A stretch of 64,000 nt of DNA. Origin: Tenggerimyces flavus. Lineage in GTDB: Bacteria > Actinomycetota > Actinomycetes > Propionibacteriales > Actinopolymorphaceae. Where the stretch lies: assembly GCF_016907715.1 (NCBI RefSeq), contig NZ_JAFBCM010000001.1, positions 1,550,001-1,614,000 of the forward strand, read 5' to 3'. Positions within the stretch are counted from its first letter, which is position 1. Each line of letters begins with the position of its first letter. The notes under the pieces were generated by a model. It saw only the letters and a program-made list of their open reading frames with translations, searched no databases and was not told where the DNA came from. The translations under genes and the position numbers were made by a program. Below are positions 52,464 to 63,425 of this stretch, in pieces.

Positions 52464-52979
52464 GTGCCTCCCCTACGTGAACGCCCGCCGATGGTGGCGG
52501 ATGAGCGGACCCAGCTGCTGGGCTGGTTCGAGCTGCAGCGGTCGATCGTGCACCACAAGTGCGAGGGCCTGTCGGACGCGGACGCGCACCGCGTGGTGGT
52601 GCCGACCTCGCCGCTGATGACGGTGGCGGGGCTGGTGTCGCATCTGCGGTGGGTCGAACACACCTGGTTCGAGGTCCTCTTCCGCGGCGGCGTGGCCGAC
52701 AGCCCGGCGTTCTCCGAGGAGCCGGAGGACGCCGACATGATCGTCCCCCCGGACGTGCCGCTGGCCCAGCTGCTGGACGAGTACGCCGCGCAGTGCAAGG
52801 CGTCGAACGAGATCATCGCCGCCCATTCCCTGGACGACGTGGGCAACCACCCCGACTTCGCGGCGGCCCGAGCATCGCTGCGCTGGATGATGATCCACAT
52901 GATCGAGGAAACCGCCCGCCACGCCGGCCACCTCGACCTGATCCGCGAGTTGCTGGACGGTGAGAAGAGCTACTTCTGA
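52464..52979 (+). CDS. DinB/DUF664 family protein
   Basis: A 171-residue four-helix DinB-like protein. It has LLGWFELQRSIVHHKCEGLS, the metal-site histidine in VSHLRWVEHTWFE, and the C-terminal MMIHMIEETARHAGHLDLIRELLDG carrying two further histidines. Members bind a divalent metal; several are mycothiol- or bacillithiol-dependent S-transferases. The substrate is unknown. A GTG at 52464 or an ATG at 52491 could start it. It overlaps the end of the convergent mini-gene by ten bases. Confidence 0.82.
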   Translation: MPPLRERPPMVADERTQLLGWFELQRSIVHHKCEGLSDADAHRVVVPTSPLMTVAGLVSHLRWVEHTWFEVLFRGGVADSPAFSEEPEDADMIVPPDVPLAQLLDEYAAQCKASNEIIAAHSLDDVGNHPDFAAARASLRWMMIHMIEETARHAGHLDLIRELLDGEKSYF

Positions 52980-53203
52980 GCCGTCTCGAAGACCTCGTCG
53001 ATCGTCTTCGCCACCGCGGCGCGACCGATCCAGTCCGTCAATTGCTCGAGGTCCCAGGTCGCGAAAATCCTGGCGCGTATCTCGGACGGCACCTCGAATC
53101 CTCGAGCGTCGAACCGCTCGAACAGGACACCCATGATCCCCATCCTGCGTCCCAGCATCACGTACCTGCGGACGAAGGGGTCGCGATACTCGCGTAGGGC
53201 CAT
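52970..53203 (-). CDS. Free-standing C-terminal domain paralogue 2 of the Rpn-like protein
   Basis: A 77-residue protein beginning MALREYRDPFVRRYVMLGRR. It is colinear with the last 73 residues of the Rpn-like protein (53470-54327), including PSEIRARIFATWDLEQLTDWIGRAAVAKTIDEVF at its end in pieces. No nuclease domain is attached. It starts nine bases after the stop of paralogue 1 and is the last gene of the operon. The first 36 bases are nearly identical in all copies while the rest has diverged. Confidence 0.75.
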   Translation of the reverse strand: MALREYRDPFVRRYVMLGRRMGIMGVLFERFDARGFEVPSEIRARIFATWDLEQLTDWIGRAAVAKTIDEVFETAQK

Positions 53204-53212
53204 GACGGTGGG

Positions 53213-53458
53213 CTATGCGAAGACTTCGTCGAGGGTCTCAGCTGTCACGGCCCGCCGGATCCAAGTCATCAGTCGCTCGGAGTCGTCCGTTTGGTTGATC
53301 CGAGCCCGCACCTCTGCCGGGACAGCGATACCACGGGCCGTCAGCACGGCGATCAGCGACTTCGCTTCGCCCTTCGCTTCGCCGATCACTTCGCCCTCGG
53401 CGCGGCCTTGCATGACGTGCTTGCGGACGAAGGGGTCGCGATACTCGCGTAGAGCCAT
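53213..53458 (-). CDS. Free-standing C-terminal domain paralogue 1 of the Rpn-like protein
   Basis: An 81-residue protein beginning MALREYRDPFVRKHVMQGRA. It has a short charged insertion (EGEVIGEAKGEAKSL) followed by the conserved tail IAVPAEVRARINQTDDSERLMTWIRRAVTAETLDEVF, described in pieces. It begins 11 bases after the stop of the full-length Rpn-like gene. Its upstream sequence has no strong Shine-Dalgarno, so it probably depends on coupling. Such stand-alone domains could bind the parent protein and act as its regulator. Confidence 0.75.
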   Translation of the reverse strand: MALREYRDPFVRKHVMQGRAEGEVIGEAKGEAKSLIAVLTARGIAVPAEVRARINQTDDSERLMTWIRRAVTAETLDEVFA

Positions 53459-53469
53459 GGAGATGCGGC

Positions 53470-53691
53470 CTAGGTGAAGATCTCGTCGAGAGAATGCGCC
53501 ACTGCCGCGCGGTCGACCCAGACCCTCAACTGCTCGAGGTCGGTGGTGCCGTCGATGAGCTCGCGGATCGTGGTCGGCACCTGGATACCGCGAACGCGAA
53601 GTACGCGGAGCAAGGCATCTGCTTCCTCCAAGGCGCGACCGTGCATGACGTGGTGGCGGACGAAGGGGTCGCGATACTCGCGTAGTGCCAT
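53470..53691 (-). CDS. Candidate internal-start product: C-terminal domain of the Rpn-like protein
   Basis: Inside the Rpn-like gene, ATG at 53691 (residue 213) is preceded by GGAGGAG with ideal spacing. From here the frame encodes 73 residues starting MALREYRDPFVRHHVMHGRA. These are exactly the same first 12 residues as the two stand-alone downstream genes. Genes inside genes of this kind are known for E. coli Rpn proteins, where the short form inhibits the nuclease (recalled from the literature). Translation from this site is inferred. Confidence 0.5.
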   Translation of the reverse strand: MALREYRDPFVRHHVMHGRALEEADALLRVLRVRGIQVPTTIRELIDGTTDLEQLRVWVDRAAVAHSLDEIFT

Positions 53692-54327
53692 GAGCTCCTC
53701 CAGGTGGCGCTTGGCGGCAAGCGGAAGCGCCGTCCTCAGTACTTCATTGTACAGAGTGCTAGTGGCCTCATCGAGGCCCTGAATACTCACCATCGTCGCT
53801 GCCAGGGACTCCTCGATGTCCGGTCTCCGGGCGTGGGCATGGGCGATGGCGGCGAGGACCGCGAGCGCTGGGTGGCTGGTCGCGGTGTCGACGTCGTCGA
53901 TCACCGGAAGTCGGTCTGGCCCGACTACCACCGGTGTGAGCACCAGTCCGGGGTGGCCGAGGTCGATGGGTTTGGCGTAGCGGTTGGCCATCGCCCGGGT
54001 GGTGCACACGACAAGCAGGGTCACCGGACATTTCAGCCGAGCGCGGAGGGTGGCGATGTAGACCGGCCAGCTCCAGTGCCGGGTGTCGTCGCCGCTGAGC
54101 TGGATCTCCACGACGACGGCGAGAACGGGCTCGCCCGACTGCTCGAGGACGACGACGGTGTCCGCGCGGTACTCCTTCGGCTGCCACTCGCTCAGGTTGG
54201 TGGAGCCGAGGGTGGCTCGTTCGAACGGGGGAACGGGCACGCCGACGACGTGTTCGAGCAGCTCGGGCGCCAGGGCGGGGCTGTGCTGAAACAGGTCGAT
54301 CAGACCCTCGTGGCGGGCGGACGGCAT
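53470..54327 (-). CDS. Rpn/PD-(D/E)XK-like nuclease-fold protein
   Basis: A 285-residue protein. The N-terminal half is a PD-(D/E)XK-type core. YRADTVVVLEQSGEPVLAVVVEIQLSGDD gives the D-x(n)-E-x-Q pattern (described in pieces), and WSWPVYIATLRARLKCPVTLLVV is the following helix-strand. The middle is helical. The last 73 residues (from MALREYRDPF) form a separate domain repeated twice downstream. Relatives are common, poorly characterised actinobacterial proteins. Rpn proteins are DNA endonucleases linked to recombination and phage defence. The ATG lies five bases after the stop of the HEAT-repeat gene, so the genes are coupled. Confidence 0.7.
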   Translation of the reverse strand: MPSARHEGLIDLFQHSPALAPELLEHVVGVPVPPFERATLGSTNLSEWQPKEYRADTVVVLEQSGEPVLAVVVEIQLSGDDTRHWSWPVYIATLRARLKCPVTLLVVCTTRAMANRYAKPIDLGHPGLVLTPVVVGPDRLPVIDDVDTATSHPALAVLAAIAHAHARRPDIEESLAATMVSIQGLDEATSTLYNEVLRTALPLAAKRHLEELMALREYRDPFVRHHVMHGRALEEADALLRVLRVRGIQVPTTIRELIDGTTDLEQLRVWVDRAAVAHSLDEIFT

Positions 54328-54332
54328 TGGGC

Positions 54333-57300
54333 TTAGGAGCTTGCGGTGGCGATGTCGAGGGTGGCTTCGCGGACGTCGGGGTGGGGGTGGGCGCGGAGGG
54401 CGACGAGGCGGGCGCGCCACTCGGCGGGCCAGTGCAGGCGGTGGCCGGCGGCGTGGGTGAGGTGGAGGGCGAGCAGGCCGCCGGCCAGGTCGACGCGGGC
54501 CGCCAGCTGGTCGATCGCGGGCTCAAGATCGGCGGGGTGCCAGTGTGCCTGGTTGCGATGCAAGCCGTCCGGAACGAGTCCCGCCAGCCGCACCGCCGCG
54601 GCGGGGCGGTCGGCGACGAGGCCCGCGAGCTCGGTCAACGCGGGCGCGGGGGAGGACCAGGGCACGGCGGCCACGAGCAGCGCGATCCGCCGCTGCAGCA
54701 GGAACGGGGCGTCGGCCAACGCGGAAGCCGCGGCCAGCAAGGCCGTGCGCAGGTTGGACCAGATCGCGGAGCGGACCAGGTCGTCGACCAGCTTGCCGAG
54801 CCGGCGCAGTGCGGGGCGGTCGCGCTCGGCGCCCGCGTCCGGTGTCCCCGGGTCGGCCGCGAGCAGGTCGCGGATCGTCGCCGGCAGCTCCGGCGAGTCC
54901 GGAACGACGAGCAGGCACGACACCAGGCTGCTGCACGCCGCCTGCCAGACGGTCCACGGACGATCCAGGTCGACCAGCGCGGCACGACACAGCGCCGGCG
55001 CCGAGGGCAGCTGCCGCACCCAGTGCCCGAGCGCGTGGAAGCCGAGCTGTGCGACGTCTCGTTCTGGATGCTGCGACACCGCCGCGATCAGTCCCGCGAA
55101 CCGGACGCGGTGCCGCTCGGCGACGTCGTACGGACGCACGCCGGCGAGCGTCGTCGCCGCCGCGGTCGGACCCGCTGCCGCTTCGTCGAGCAGCGGCCAG
55201 GCGGCCGAATCGTCAAGCAGGCGGCGCGAAACGACGCTGGTGATCGCGGCTTGTACGTCGCGGTGCGCGGACGGCCACGCCTCGGCGAGGATCGCCATCG
55301 CGCCCGGCGGCCGGTGCTCGCCGAGCAGTCGCGCCGCCTCCTTGCGCGAGGTGATCTTCACGCCGTCACCGACGAGCAGCGGCCGCAGCATGCCCGCCAG
55401 TTGGCTCGGCGGCACGTACCGCGCGGCTCTCGTCGCTGCGTACGTCGCCACCCGGGCGAGGTCGTCGCCGGCGAACTGGAGCAGCTCGGGCAGCAGCTCC
55501 GCCGGCTGGTCGACCCAGGCGAGCGAACCGAGCGCCGCCTCGGCGATCGGCACCTCCGCGGACTCGAGGAACGGGCGGACGGCCGCCAGTCCGATCATCG
55601 GCAGCCGGCCGATCATCCCGACCGCGGCGGACCGCGTCCACACGGGCAGCTCGGAGTCGCGCGCGACCACGTCGAGCAGGTCGCGGTACGCCACGTGCTG
55701 CCGCGGCAGCCACCGCCGCAGCGCGGAAGGCCGGACGTACCAGGCCGGATGGTTCTGGCTGAACCGCAGCGTCTGGTCCGGGTCGGCGAGGATCGGGTCG
55801 AGCAGGTCGGTCCGCCGCTCGGTCACGACCGCCCAGATCGCACCCCATCGGGCTCGCTGGAGATCCTCGGTCAGCAGTTGCTCGGTGCGCTCGCCACGCT
55901 TGGCCGGATCCCTCAGCCACAACGAGATTCCGCTCTGTGCGATGCCGTCGTACTCCGACCGCGCCGCGCGAGCGAGCAGGTCCTGCAGGTGGTCGATGGC
56001 GTACGCGCGCTTGCCGAACGCCCACGCCGCCTGGAACGCCAAGCCCCATTGGTCGCGCGCCGCGTACGCGTCGAGCAGCCCGCGCAACCGCGCGTAGACC
56101 TCGCGCTCGCGTCCCCGCGGCAGCCCGTCGCAGAGCCCGCTGAGCGAGACGACGCCGGACTGCCCGGCGATCCGCTCGTGCGCCTGGATGCCCCACTCCA
56201 GCAGGGCATTGTCACCGCGAAGCGCACCCTGCCGGACAGCACTCTCGGCGAGCGACGTCAGCGCGTGCCGGGTCCCCCACGAGCAGTCGCGGGCGTTGAG
56301 CGCGTCGGTGAGCAGCACCTCCCATGCGGGCACCTGGTCGCCGGCGAGCAGCGACGGCGGCAGCTCGGCTACGCCTTGCAACGCGGCTTGCCGAACGGGG
56401 TCCTGGTCGTTGCGCAGCCGCGCCAGCCACTCCGCCGTCTGGCGTACGACGGCAACCGATCGGGACCTCCCGGTCGCGGTGAGGATCGCGCGGTAGACGG
56501 CGGCCCGCTCGCCCGCGTCCGCGCGCCGAACCTCCTGCTGCAGAACGGTAAACGCCTCGTCGAACGCCAGTTGTGCGGTCACTCGCCAGGTCGCGGCCGT
56601 CGACTCGCGCACCGCCGGTACGCCCAACATCCGCTGCGCATGGCGATGACGGACGTCGTGCGGCAACGCGTCGAGCACGCCCTCGTCGATCACCGTCTGG
56701 CTGAGGTCGAGCGAACGGGTGACCAGCCCGAACACCGCCGCCCGGCGCAACGGCGGCAACGCCTCGAGCACGCCTTGCACCGAGCGCGGGTTGGCCCAGA
56801 CGATCCGCCCGATCGTGGCGACCTGCTCGTCGGTCAGCACGCGGAGCCGCCGCAGCAGGCTCGGCCGCAGGGCGTGCGCTCGGACGGCGTCGGCTCGTTC
56901 CGGCGTGGTCAGCAACCGGAGCAGCAGCGTGCCCTCGGGATCCAGGCCGGCGAACCGTCCCAGCCCGTCCGCGATCGCCGGCGGCAGCGCATGCCTCGGC
57001 AGGCCTTGCTCGATGGCTCGCCAGGCGCGCTCGGGCTGGTGTTCGGCCGCGGCGACGACACCCGCGCCGGCGGTCGACCACCAGTACGCGCGGGTCTGGT
57101 CGTCGCCGAGTTTGGGCAGGACGGACTCGGCGTAGGTGAGCAGGAGCTCGGCGTGCCTCGCGCCGAGGCGGGACCAGTCGCCGACGCCGAGCAGATGGTC
57201 GAGGTCGGGCAGCAGCCGGGCGATCGTGGCGGAGTCGCAGGCGGTGAACAGGCCGACCGCCTCGTCGTCGCCCCACTGCGCGCGGGCGACGTCGAGCAGC

Positions 57301-57677
57301 ATGCTGGCGAGCGTGCCGCGGCGGGATCGGCGGACCACCCGGGCGAGCCACTTACGCCGCCAGGCGGGCGCGTCGGCGTACCCGCGGGCGAGCGCTTCGT
57401 CCGACACCGCCGGCAGGTTTGCCGCGACCGAGATCGCCCGCCGCTGGACGGCCGGCGCGGGATCGTCCAGCGCGCGTTCGAGGTAGGCGGCGTCCCCGGC
57501 CGCCTCCGCCACCACCAGCCCGACCTGCCGCGCGGCGAGGTCGCCCGCGGCCAGCTCGTCGAGAAGCTCACGCAGCTCGGGACTTCCGAGCAGCCGCCGT
57601 GCCTCGACCGCGATCCGGTGCGTGCGTTGCGGAGACGGCAACGCGTCCACGGCGGCGGCGAGGTCGGCGGCATGCAT
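54333..57677 (-). CDS. Large HEAT-repeat protein (1114 residues)
   Basis: A cytoplasmic, almost entirely alpha-helical protein with no signal peptide or transmembrane helix. It consists of many HEAT-like helix pairs from end to end, for example DLAARQVGLVVAEAAGDAAYL, AVQRRAISVAANLPAVSDEAL, IAEAALGSLAWVDQPAELL and ARVATYAATRAARY. No catalytic motif is apparent. HEAT solenoids serve as scaffolds and as sensors in several defence and repair systems. It is the first gene of an operon with the Rpn-like gene and its two mini-paralogues. Confidence 0.75.
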   Translation of the reverse strand: MHAADLAAAVDALPSPQRTHRIAVEARRLLGSPELRELLDELAAGDLAARQVGLVVAEAAGDAAYLERALDDPAPAVQRRAISVAANLPAVSDEALARGYADAPAWRRKWLARVVRRSRRGTLASMLLDVARAQWGDDEAVGLFTACDSATIARLLPDLDHLLGVGDWSRLGARHAELLLTYAESVLPKLGDDQTRAYWWSTAGAGVVAAAEHQPERAWRAIEQGLPRHALPPAIADGLGRFAGLDPEGTLLLRLLTTPERADAVRAHALRPSLLRRLRVLTDEQVATIGRIVWANPRSVQGVLEALPPLRRAAVFGLVTRSLDLSQTVIDEGVLDALPHDVRHRHAQRMLGVPAVRESTAATWRVTAQLAFDEAFTVLQQEVRRADAGERAAVYRAILTATGRSRSVAVVRQTAEWLARLRNDQDPVRQAALQGVAELPPSLLAGDQVPAWEVLLTDALNARDCSWGTRHALTSLAESAVRQGALRGDNALLEWGIQAHERIAGQSGVVSLSGLCDGLPRGREREVYARLRGLLDAYAARDQWGLAFQAAWAFGKRAYAIDHLQDLLARAARSEYDGIAQSGISLWLRDPAKRGERTEQLLTEDLQRARWGAIWAVVTERRTDLLDPILADPDQTLRFSQNHPAWYVRPSALRRWLPRQHVAYRDLLDVVARDSELPVWTRSAAVGMIGRLPMIGLAAVRPFLESAEVPIAEAALGSLAWVDQPAELLPELLQFAGDDLARVATYAATRAARYVPPSQLAGMLRPLLVGDGVKITSRKEAARLLGEHRPPGAMAILAEAWPSAHRDVQAAITSVVSRRLLDDSAAWPLLDEAAAGPTAAATTLAGVRPYDVAERHRVRFAGLIAAVSQHPERDVAQLGFHALGHWVRQLPSAPALCRAALVDLDRPWTVWQAACSSLVSCLLVVPDSPELPATIRDLLAADPGTPDAGAERDRPALRRLGKLVDDLVRSAIWSNLRTALLAAASALADAPFLLQRRIALLVAAVPWSSPAPALTELAGLVADRPAAAVRLAGLVPDGLHRNQAHWHPADLEPAIDQLAARVDLAGGLLALHLTHAAGHRLHWPAEWRARLVALRAHPHPDVREATLDIATASS

Positions 57678-60087: not shown

Positions 60088-60550
60088 CCCTGATCTGGTC
60101 GCCGGCCTCAACCCAGAAAACGGAGCACCTCGCATCGGGGTTAACACCTCCAAGAAACTGTCCGTATACATACAGAAATGTCCACTTCGACCAGCGGCAA
60201 TACCACCGGACTGGTCGAACGAGGCGCACCCCGGGCCGCGAGCCGAGCCGGAATTCTCGACCGGATTAGGTTGATTCGGCTTCGTCCGGCGCTTGGCCAA
60301 GCGATGATGGACCCCGTCGCCCGCGGGCGATGAGTTGCCCTTCCTCGAGGTCCCCTCCCGGTCCGACGCGCTCGGCCTGTTCCTCGGGGAAGGTCACTAG
60401 CCACACATCGTTTCAGCGGGACGGTGAATCTCTCGCCATCCCCCAACCGATCGAGGGTGAGCACCGCATGCGTGACAGCGATTCGGCCAGGCCGGCACGT
60501 TGGCCGGGTCGTGTCGGGGCGACGCGTCGTGCTACGTGCAAGGAGCACCC

Positions 60551-61252
60551 ATGTCGATGACGGCACCGCGTACCGGCCCTGCCGCTGGCAGCCCGGACGA
60601 TCCCGACCGACCACTTCGTGAGTACGAGGTCGAGGAGCTCGCCGCGGCTGCTGCCGCCGGGTCGCTCGACGCGCTGGGCCTGTTGTACGAGCGGTACGCC
60701 GACCTGAGCTACCGGTTCATCGTGGTGCGCGTGCAGGATCAGGCGCTCGCCGAGGACATCGCCAGCGAGCTGTGGATGAAGGTCGCGCGCGCGATCGGCG
60801 CGTACCAGACCGCTGGCAAGGGGTTCCCGGCGTGGCTGCTCACGATCGCGAGCCGCCTGATCATCGACCACTTCCGGAAACCCGTTCGCAAACGCGAGAT
60901 GCCGACCGCGGACATGCTCGCGCTCGACACCGCCGCCGTGGGGGACAGCCCCGAGGAGGCCGCGCTCCGGTCCGAGACCGCCGCGGCGGTCGCCGGCGCG
61001 CTGGAGAAGCTGCCGGCTCGGCAGCGCGAATGCCTCGTGCTCCGGTTCTTCGTGGGGCTCTCCATCGCCGAGACCGCGCAGGCCATGAACCGTACGGAAG
61101 GCTCGGTCAAGGTGCTGCAGCACCGTTCGCTCCGCAAACTCGCCACCGTGCTCCCGCCAGGTGTGGGCGGGGCTAACCGAACCAAGGACCGCGACGTTCC
61201 CTCAGTACGGAGAACGTCCCAGCTCCCTGGGGCGGGAGGTGAGGACAAGTGA
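60551..61252 (+). CDS. ECF RNA polymerase sigma factor
   Basis: A 233-residue sigma factor. Region 2 is ALGLLYERYADLSYRFIVVR, ALAEDIASELWMKVARAIG, GFPAWLLTIASRLIIDHFRK in order. Region 4 is LPARQRECLVLRFFVGLSIAETAQAMNRTEGSVKVLQHRSLRKLA. A short extra C-terminal tail follows. AGGAG precedes the ATG at 60551, and a second ATG lies two codons later. The stop overlaps the next gene's GTG start by four bases. The two following genes are the likely regulatory partners, as ECF operons usually carry their anti-sigma factor. Confidence 0.88.
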   Translation: MSMTAPRTGPAAGSPDDPDRPLREYEVEELAAAAAAGSLDALGLLYERYADLSYRFIVVRVQDQALAEDIASELWMKVARAIGAYQTAGKGFPAWLLTIASRLIIDHFRKPVRKREMPTADMLALDTAAVGDSPEEAALRSETAAAVAGALEKLPARQRECLVLRFFVGLSIAETAQAMNRTEGSVKVLQHRSLRKLATVLPPGVGGANRTKDRDVPSVRRTSQLPGAGGEDK

Positions 61253-61647
61253 AGCGGCACCCACGCGGCGGACCCGAGCAGCTTGCGCAGGCGCTCGACG
61301 ACCCGAACGTTCCGGTCGACGACCCCGCGCTCGAGGCAGCGATCCGGGCGGCAGATGCTTTGACGCCAGGCGTGGCGCCGCGCGAGTCCTGGCGTGCTGC
61401 GGTCAAGGACCGCATGCTCCGGGAGGCGAAGCGTGCTGGATCCGCCCCGCGTGAAGGTGCGGGCACGCGAGACGGTTCCAGCGGCTCGTCCATCCACAGC
61501 GTCGAGGTCGAGACGACCAGCGACGCGCACATCGTCCTTGCCGACGTCGAGGAGATCGACGAGGCGCGGGCGCGTGAGGTGGCGGCCAAGCTCGAGCGGA
61601 TCGCCAGGGCGTTCGCGCCGGAGGGGCAGGGCCGGGGTCAGCAATGA
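61249..61647 (+). CDS. Putative anti-sigma or accessory protein of the ECF operon
   Basis: A 132-residue soluble protein of unknown family. It has an N-terminal helix-rich half (GGPEQLAQALDDPNVPVDDP, LEAAIRAADALTPGVAPRESWRAAVKDRML), a Gly/Ser linker (GAGTRDGSSGSSIHS), and a C-terminal strand-helix end (AHIVLADVEEIDEARAREVAAKLERIARAF). It lacks the HxxxCxxC motif of zinc anti-sigma factors and has no transmembrane helix. Four-base overlaps on both sides place it in the middle of a coupled three-gene operon. Confidence 0.6.
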   Translation: MKRHPRGGPEQLAQALDDPNVPVDDPALEAAIRAADALTPGVAPRESWRAAVKDRMLREAKRAGSAPREGAGTRDGSSGSSIHSVEVETTSDAHIVLADVEEIDEARAREVAAKLERIARAFAPEGQGRGQQ

Positions 61648-63425
61648 GGGACACCGAGCCGCCCCGCGTCGTCGTTGCCGATATCGGCACCGACGCTGCG
61701 CTGTACAGCGAGCCCGGCAACCGCGTGCTCGTGCTCCGCCCGGGGCAGACGTTCAGCAACGCCGTTGCCGCCGCGCAGCGCTGCCTGCCGAACGCGCATC
61801 CCGACGTCATTCGTACGGTCGTCCGTACGTATCTGCCGGACGCGCCCGACTTCGACCTTCCCTCGGTGCCGCCGCTGATGCGGACCGAGCCGGTGCCGGC
61901 GCGGACTCCCGTACAACCGCGCTGGTTCATGAGCCGCGCGGTGATGATCGGCATCCTGTGCGTCGCCACGGCCCTGTCGCTCGGCGGCTGGGGCCTGGTC
62001 GGCATCGGGACCGACGAGCCGCCGGTCGCCGCGAGCCAGACCGGGACGACCACGACGAACGTGCGGCAGGCCGGCATGGAGCCGTACAAGAACGAGGCGT
62101 TCCGCGACTTCGCCAAGCGCGGCGAGCTCACCTGCGACCCGATGGCGAACGCCATGCGCGCGAGCTGCACCGACTGGGAAGGGTCGGTGATGGTCTCCGA
62201 GGCCACCATCGGCGCGGACCGGATCATCTTCACGTTCCAATACGGCAAGGATCGGGTGAGCCTCGGCATCTTCACCAAGCCGGACGACGCGACGACCTGG
62301 GCGAAGGTGAACCAGGACCGCGAAGGCGTCCGGGTCGAGGGCCGCTTCGTGCTGTGGGGGACCGACAAGGGCAAGCTCGACGCGTACAAGAAGCTGCTGG
62401 CCGAGGTGCAGCCGCCCCGGCAGACCGGTGCTGTGGTCCCGAGCGCGGACCATCCCGAGCACAACGCCTCGGCGACGTCGGCCGAGCTGGACGTACGCGG
62501 GGCCGCACGCAGCCTCGCCGAGTTGCTCCCGAGGCAGCTCGGCGCGATCGTCATGGGCACGCTCGGCGTCACGTCCGAGGCGGTCGACCGGGCCGGTCGG
62601 CTCGGCATCGAGCAGGCCCTGTCGCCGCCGGTCGCGATCGCGGTGCGGCTCGCGCTGGGAGTGCCGCCGCCTCCGGAGAGCGGTCCGCCCGGTGGTGCGT
62701 CCGACGAGGACATCCTGACGATCGCGAACGAGCCGTTGCCCGTTCCGAACGACCAGAAGCCCGCGCCCAAGGGGCCGGCGCCCGACCCGGCACCGCCGTC
62801 GGATCCCGCACCCGACCCCGCGCCACCCTCGGATCCCGCGCCTGATCCGGAGCCCGCGCCACCGCCGTCGGACCCGGCTCCGCCGCCCGCGGACCCCGTA
62901 CCTCCGCCGTCGGACCCGGCACCGCCGCCCGCGGACCCGGAGCCGAGCCCGCAACCGTCGCCGAGTGACCCCGACCCGTCGCCTTCGCCGGGACCGGGCA
63001 CCGAGGACGACGGTGGGGACCCCGTACCTTCGCCGAACGACGACGGCTCGGAGAAGGGGCCGACGACGGACGAGGGTGTGCCGACCGAGACCGGCGATCC
63101 CACCACGCCGCCTGGTGATTCGGGTGGCAATGGGGACAGCAAGACCGAGACCGAGTGGGACAAGACGAAGCCGGTGCCGGGGCTGCCTGAGCCCCCGGAG
63201 CAGCCTGCGCCGGGTCCGGAGGAGCAGCCCGCGCCGGCACCGGCTCCGGCTCCGGAGGAGCACGCCGAGGACGACGGCGGCGAGAACTCCGGCCCGGGCG
63301 ACGAGTCGACGGTGCCGACCGACGACGAGCAGGACTCCGGCGACCAGTCGGACGACGACTGCACGAAGCATGACGACCCCGACGAGCACGGGGAGTCCGC
63401 TCCCGCCGACGCTGCTCAGGGGTAG
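61644..63425 (+). CDS. Membrane protein with long Pro/Asp/Glu-rich extracellular tail (ECF operon)
   Basis: A 593-residue protein. The cytoplasmic N-terminal 93 residues could contact the sigma factor. One transmembrane helix (about residues 96-119: SRAVMIGILCVATALSLGGW) is followed by a folded region (about 140-265, with paired Cys in LTCDPMANAMRASCTDW). A 250-residue disordered tail of PAPDPAPPSDP-type repeats ends in an acidic stretch (SGDQSDDDCTKHDDPDEH). The topology is that of a transmembrane anti-sigma factor or wall-spanning sensor. No known anti-sigma motif was found. It ends the operon and is followed by a family-3 repeat. Confidence 0.6.
   Translation: MRDTEPPRVVVADIGTDAALYSEPGNRVLVLRPGQTFSNAVAAAQRCLPNAHPDVIRTVVRTYLPDAPDFDLPSVPPLMRTEPVPARTPVQPRWFMSRAVMIGILCVATALSLGGWGLVGIGTDEPPVAASQTGTTTTNVRQAGMEPYKNEAFRDFAKRGELTCDPMANAMRASCTDWEGSVMVSEATIGADRIIFTFQYGKDRVSLGIFTKPDDATTWAKVNQDREGVRVEGRFVLWGTDKGKLDAYKKLLAEVQPPRQTGAVVPSADHPEHNASATSAELDVRGAARSLAELLPRQLGAIVMGTLGVTSEAVDRAGRLGIEQALSPPVAIAVRLALGVPPPPESGPPGGASDEDILTIANEPLPVPNDQKPAPKGPAPDPAPPSDPAPDPAPPSDPAPDPEPAPPPSDPAPPPADPVPPPSDPAPPPADPEPSPQPSPSDPDPSPSPGPGTEDDGGDPVPSPNDDGSEKGPTTDEGVPTETGDPTTPPGDSGGNGDSKTETEWDKTKPVPGLPEPPEQPAPGPEEQPAPAPAPAPEEHAEDDGGENSGPGDESTVPTDDEQDSGDQSDDDCTKHDDPDEHGESAPADAAQG

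Follow-up and report, generated by a model that had tools for sequence, protein, structure and literature searches.

The window analyzed here, a 64,000-nt stretch of the Tenggerimyces flavus genome (contig NZ_JAFBCM010000001.1, positions 1,550,001 to 1,614,000), encodes what we regard, on balance, as probably a divergent Rpn-type L/S module, in which a nuclease gene (L) carries a nested frame for its own C-terminal domain (S) and is followed by stand-alone S paralogues that would have altered specificity and maybe serve as exchangeable C-terminal modules. The strongest result comes from comparison of relatives, which points to nucleotide-level selection for a ribosome-binding site at the internal start. 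Three features are new to this work: internal starts are conserved in a large family of actinobacteria and myxobacteria that lacks annotation; two S copies occur in tandem; and stand-alone S copies recurrently mismatch their neighbour in repeat number.

Organization of the locus

A preliminary description of this DNA, made from the sequence alone, had proposed three successive S frames, one starting inside the full-length gene at residue 213 and two lying 11 and 9 nt past the stop of the frame before; all three proved to be open. The full-length gene (L form, 285 aa, positions 53470..54327, minus strand as are all features of the module) comprises a nuclease domain, a helical linker and the C-terminal S domain. 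The nested S frame, from M213 to the stop (73 aa, 53470..53691), begins with the ATG of codon 213, whose first base is 53691, and is preceded at a 5-nt distance by a GGAGG Shine-Dalgarno sequence (53697..53701). Stand-alone S copy 1 (81 aa, 53213..53458) starts 11 nt past the parent stop, and copy 2 (77 aa, 52970..53203) starts 9 nt past the copy 1 stop. A Shine-Dalgarno sequence was found before the nested start alone and is absent before copies 1 and 2. A search of the 8.5-Mb genome detected no further S copy beyond these three.

The proposed near-identity of about 36 bases at each start, followed by wide divergence of the remaining codons, was also borne out. A 30-nt block occurs exactly three times (53656..53685 in the nested copy, 53423..53452 in copy 1 and 53168..53197 in copy 2) where zero occurrences were expected, and the first 36 nt of the three S starts vary at one base only, the silent third position of codon 2. 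Past this shared start, the identity drops from 94–100% to about 40–80% (per 18 nt). Compared to the nested copy, copy 1 has 8 additional residues, corresponding to two 4-residue units, in helix 1; its repeat segment spans residues 18–33 (GRAEGEVIGEAKGEAK, 53360..53407). Helix 1 of copy 2 is equal in length to that of the nested copy and very different in sequence.

Upstream, a 1,114-aa gene without a Pfam match (window 54333-57677, minus strand) ends 5 nt before the nuclease start, and the two genes probably form a single operon. The 1,114-aa gene was seen beside no relative of the nuclease gene, and an association between them was dropped for this reason. A convergent Mycothiol-S-transferase/DinB-type gene (window 52464-52979, plus strand) overlaps the final 10 bases of copy 2. 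Elsewhere in the window, a plus-strand frame at 60500-61252, whose translation resembles by eye an RNA polymerase sigma factor, lies near a proline-rich repeat protein (61644-63425).

Predicted nuclease domain and its relation to Rpn proteins

The AlphaFold2 model of the full-length protein reached a mean pLDDT of 90.5 (69 aligned family members). In a structural search with residues 1–158, nearly all of the best matches listed were PD-(D/E)XK enzymes, headed by those of the EndoMS/NucS type (Z 8.3 and 8.1, only moderate values) and followed by SdaI, McrC, BspD6I and FokI, while Foldseek alone returned no significant match to the model. The N-terminal domain is accordingly described here as a predicted PD-(D/E)XK nuclease. 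The model of the S domain (pLDDT 76) consists of one long first helix and three short helices; a structural search with it returned nothing above noise, and RpnA-S (7TH0) was not among the matches.

Profile alignment (hhalign) to E. coli-type Rpn proteins covered 246 columns and was colinear end to end, with an E value of 0.006 and a probability of only 6%. In this weak alignment, RpnA residues D11, D63, E82 and Q84, established as catalytic by mutagenesis (PMC5350276), meet E7, D56, E74 and Q76 of the window protein; D56, E74 and Q76 are invariant in 69 family sequences, and E7 is a conservative change relative to RpnA D11. The internal translation start of RpnA at M244 (PMC10327210) meets M213 in the same alignment. 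The score is weak, yet the catalytic residues and the internal start coincide, and we therefore treat the protein as Rpn-like rather than as a member of PF04754/COG5464. The Rpn-like nature assigned in the preliminary description thus finds support in the fold, the catalytic residues, the position of the internal start and the 4-residue repeats of the S domain.

None of the Pfam, NCBIfam and PADLOC models matched the window proteins. At E≤1, Pfam yielded weak DUF4351 and DUF2887 matches and nothing else, and Transposase_31 (PF04754) did not match the window protein and was not among the matches listed for members of the 25- and 69-sequence alignments; canonical PF04754 proteins were not found in the genome of the window. 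A sequence search of the PDB with the family profile produced matches to the repetitive protein CagY, one chance match and nothing else. The family gene is present in 1 of 392 genomes of the same order, namely this one. Of 395 genomes drawn from the class, 81 contain relatives, often several per genome. Named relatives belong to Amycolatopsis, Nocardia, Nonomuraea and Actinoplanes, and also to Myxococcota. Neither relatives of the protein nor the 30-nt block were found in viral contigs. The family is widespread in Actinomycetota and present in Myxococcota, and is without a model in the libraries used.

Conservation of the internal start

The internal start was analyzed in 81 genes, consisting of 80 loci from species-representative genomes and the window; the genes are related to each other, which brings the effective sample number below 81. 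The M213 column contained ATG in 71 of the 81 genes and GTG, TTG or CTG in 7, amounting to a start codon of any kind in 78. GGAG was located within 18 nt upstream of the aligned internal start in 80/81 genes. When synonymous codons were redrawn from the codon usage of the family itself, GGAG appeared in a mean of 37.9 genes (sd 4.4, maximum 54 of 81 in 5000 trials), and the longer GGAGG motif, observed in 59 genes, was expected in 25.6. Elsewhere in the gene, the next best position carried GGAG in 52%.

The Leu-Glu and Met residues at this site are themselves conserved, as they would be if the internal ATG and GGAGG were a by-product of a LEELM motif conserved at the protein level and no short product were made. 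We consider this explanation highly improbable, because recoding of the same protein sequences yields GGAG in 38 of the 81 genes and not in 80, and because the choice of codons follows the motif in the DNA. The Leu preceding Glu is encoded by CTG or TTG in 68/69 cases, even though CTC ranks second in frequency among Leu codons; overall, the codon at this position almost always ends in G, the rare TTG included. Residues other than Leu at this position are usually Trp, Met or Val, also mostly with a G-ending codon. The position following Glu accepts different residues (Glu, Ala, Asp, Gly, Ser and others), and their codons mostly begin with G. Furthermore, the residue of RpnA that aligns here is a proven internal start (PMC10327210). 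Given GGAG in 80/81 relatives compared to 38±4 after recoding, the internal start is very probably real, and the initiation at 53691 suggested earlier is now backed by nucleotide conservation across the family.

Recurrence and maintenance of downstream S copies

A frame encoding the C-terminal domain only was present downstream of the full-length gene at 9 of 80 unselected loci. In a larger set of 182 distinct full-length genes, which includes some genes fetched because of their downstream frames, 23 were followed by such frames; a check for tandem copies in other genomes, proposed in the preliminary description, thus revealed recurrent single copies (22 genes), with two copies in tandem only in the window. 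The stop of the parent and the start of the copy overlap or adjoin at L064 (ATGA) and L091 (TGAATG) and lie 13 nt apart at L043. Starts at or near the parent stop fit the expected translational coupling, and copies 1 and 2, having no Shine-Dalgarno sequence of their own, would have to be translated by coupling to the stop ahead of them.

Several observations would fit downstream copies that are decaying by-products of tandem 3′-end duplications, devoid of a function of their own. Some copies in relatives are broken or doubtful (L067 is frameshifted, and L069 and L076 have no usual start), the window copies have no Shine-Dalgarno sequence, and GC-rich DNA often leaves frames open by chance, with about 6% of indel-free neutral simulations leaving both window copies open. 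However, dN/dS computed outside the first 13 codons was 0.34 (bootstrap limits 0.09 and 0.71) for copies 1 and 2 and 0.35 for the parent and copy 1; the value for the parent and copy 2, 0.64, was not clearly below 1. The frames are free of frameshifts despite a synonymous divergence above 1, downstream copies recur in the family at the frequency given above, eight orphan S frames still have GGAG and a start codon, and the E. coli RpnE-S (ypaA) protein has been detected (PMC10327210). Decay is therefore an improbable account of the copies. The dN/dS values together with the ~6% neutral survival suggest that copies 1 and 2 are probably under purifying selection and that their frames are maintained; random decay, which the preliminary description had named as one outcome that would speak against a functional system, is at odds with both the dN/dS between the copies and the recurrence of downstream copies in relatives.

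The eight orphan S frames (L148, L149, L152, L154, L155, L162, L163 and L164) lack a nuclease domain in the roughly 1.3 kb upstream of them, as if the inhibitor had outlived the toxin. At L146, L150, L153 and L159, the nuclease domain is broken or truncated and the S frame is still open.

Repeat number and inhibitor pairing

The first helix of the S domain contains 4-residue repeats whose number varies across the family. In this helix, one or two 4-residue units separate the parent from its copy in all six pairs with nucleotide identity of at least about 90% (L010, L043, L084, L156, L157 and L161). Similarly, ypaA of E. coli K-12 has one unit (KLEG) more than rpnE, and the repeat counts of rpnE and ypaA were unequal in 15/15 E. 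coli strains examined (L166:11905-13002; L172-L188). Addition of a single repeat unit to E. coli RpnC abolishes inhibition of the unmodified L (Zhong et al., PMC10327210). From the repeat mismatch and this loss of inhibition, an adjacent stand-alone S would usually be predicted not to inhibit its neighbour. We do not claim that the mismatch is selected, because the absence of equal pairs in E. coli is also what independent drift predicts; the mismatch could reflect fast neutral turnover of the repeats.

These findings bear on the initial idea of one L bound and inhibited by each of the three short forms, with the extra copies raising the antitoxin level. The three forms share a common domain, a common start and one probable transcript, the copies appear to be under purifying selection, and the helix-1 length of copy 2 matches that of the nested copy, all of which would agree with a dosage effect. 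Conversely, beyond residue 13 the copies diverged strongly (dN about 0.45), copy 1 acquired two additional 4-residue units, the repeat number always differs in recent pairs of relatives, and such an added unit was sufficient to abolish inhibition in E. coli RpnC (PMC10327210). It is doubtful that the copies act as additional antitoxins against one nuclease, since recent pairs differ by whole repeats of the kind that abolish inhibition in E. coli, and we consider this explanation rather unlikely. Divergence of the helix-1 repeat region and of the surface of the copies suggests that stand-alone S paralogues with a different partner specificity are the better candidates.

Shared 5′ ends as a candidate zone of exchange

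Silent differences between the three S frames were rare in the first 13 codons (pS 0.11–0.16) compared to the rest of the frames (0.47–0.66). Low silent divergence at the 5′ end was also observed at L091 and L017, and not at L064. In E. coli, the 5′ ends of the rpnE domain and ypaA are nearly identical and the tails diverged. In E. coli strains with a single copy, a ypaA-type tail is attached directly to RpnE in 3/3 cases, an arrangement expected from a deletion that joins the shared 5′ ends; fusions of this tail to RpnE have been mentioned previously (PMC10327210). Strict nucleotide constraint on the 36-base segment was rejected, because the sequence differs in relatives and silent sites are conserved in some diverged pairs only (L091 and L017), and local gene conversion fits better for the same reasons. 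By analogy with E. coli, we read the 36-base segment as a putative zone of gene conversion or exchange.

Discussion

In the mechanism proposed here, L toxicity, S inhibition, the change in specificity, exchange in this species and translational coupling are what we infer from the comparisons described above. L would be a PD-(D/E)XK DNA nuclease toxic to its own cell, and S, the C-terminal helical domain, would also be made from the same gene by way of the internal ATG at codon 213. S would bind L through the long helix of the C-terminal domain and keep it inactive until, for example, phage infection. Tandem duplication of the 3′ part of the gene would have given rise to copies 1 and 2, whose frames selection would preserve and whose translation is probably coupled to the preceding stop. 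Their partner specificity would be unlike that of the nested S and directed to another, earlier or incoming variant of L. The identical first 36 bases would mark where recombination or gene conversion can exchange the C-terminal domain of L.

An extension of this mechanism, which we put forward as speculative and unlikely, is that the locus keeps a reservoir of specificities in its downstream S copies, which are recombined onto the nuclease in place of its C-terminal domain via the shared 36-base start, allowing partner specificity to be switched. If this were true, each resulting L would have a matching nested S, leftover copies would protect against a sibling or incoming L, and the specificity of the phage trigger would perhaps be switched too, as in arrays of orphan toxin tips. 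In the orphan toxin cassettes of CdiA/Rhs systems, stand-alone C-terminal modules lie downstream, share a short homologous 5′ segment and can replace the resident C-terminus. The module there is a toxin, whereas that of the window would be an inhibitor and partner-recognition domain, and the likeness is one of layout, with no homology claimed.

Among the closest known systems are the gene-within-gene toxin-antitoxins RpnL/RpnS (RpnA, RpnB, RpnP2), which share with the window family the PD-(D/E)XK nuclease, the D...ExQ active site, the internal start at the aligned residue and a helical S domain with 4-residue repeats; the window family differs from them in having Glu in place of RpnA D11 and in lacking a recognised family model. 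An internal start together with a separate downstream C-terminal copy is likewise found in E. coli RpnE with ypaA (RpnE-S) and, in some strains, in RpnC with RpnC-S (PMC10327210). In K-12, ypaA begins 12 nt past the rpnE stop, compared to 11 nt for copy 1 of the window, and both loci combine near-identical 5′ ends with unequal numbers of 4-residue repeats. In contrast to the window, the E. coli systems have one downstream copy instead of two, their copies are much more alike, and their genes belong to PF04754, whereas the window family falls outside it. The number of 4-residue helix repeats also alters specificity in EcoR124I/EcoR124II, with their TAEL repeats (PMC10327210), although in that case it is the DNA-site spacing of a restriction enzyme that changes and not the pairing with an inhibitor. 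The preliminary description knew of no account of the tandem arrangement; this holds for two S copies in tandem, of which we found no earlier description in the open-access literature searched, but not for single downstream copies, which have been published for rpnE/ypaA (PMC10327210).

Our analysis provides comparative support for the internal start that is independent of any one genome. It also raises a question left by the E. coli work, namely the role of downstream S copies that tend to mismatch the repeat number of their neighbour. Since the nested design is conserved in dozens of relatives, a large family without annotation can be added to the recently described toxin-antitoxin design of a gene within a gene.
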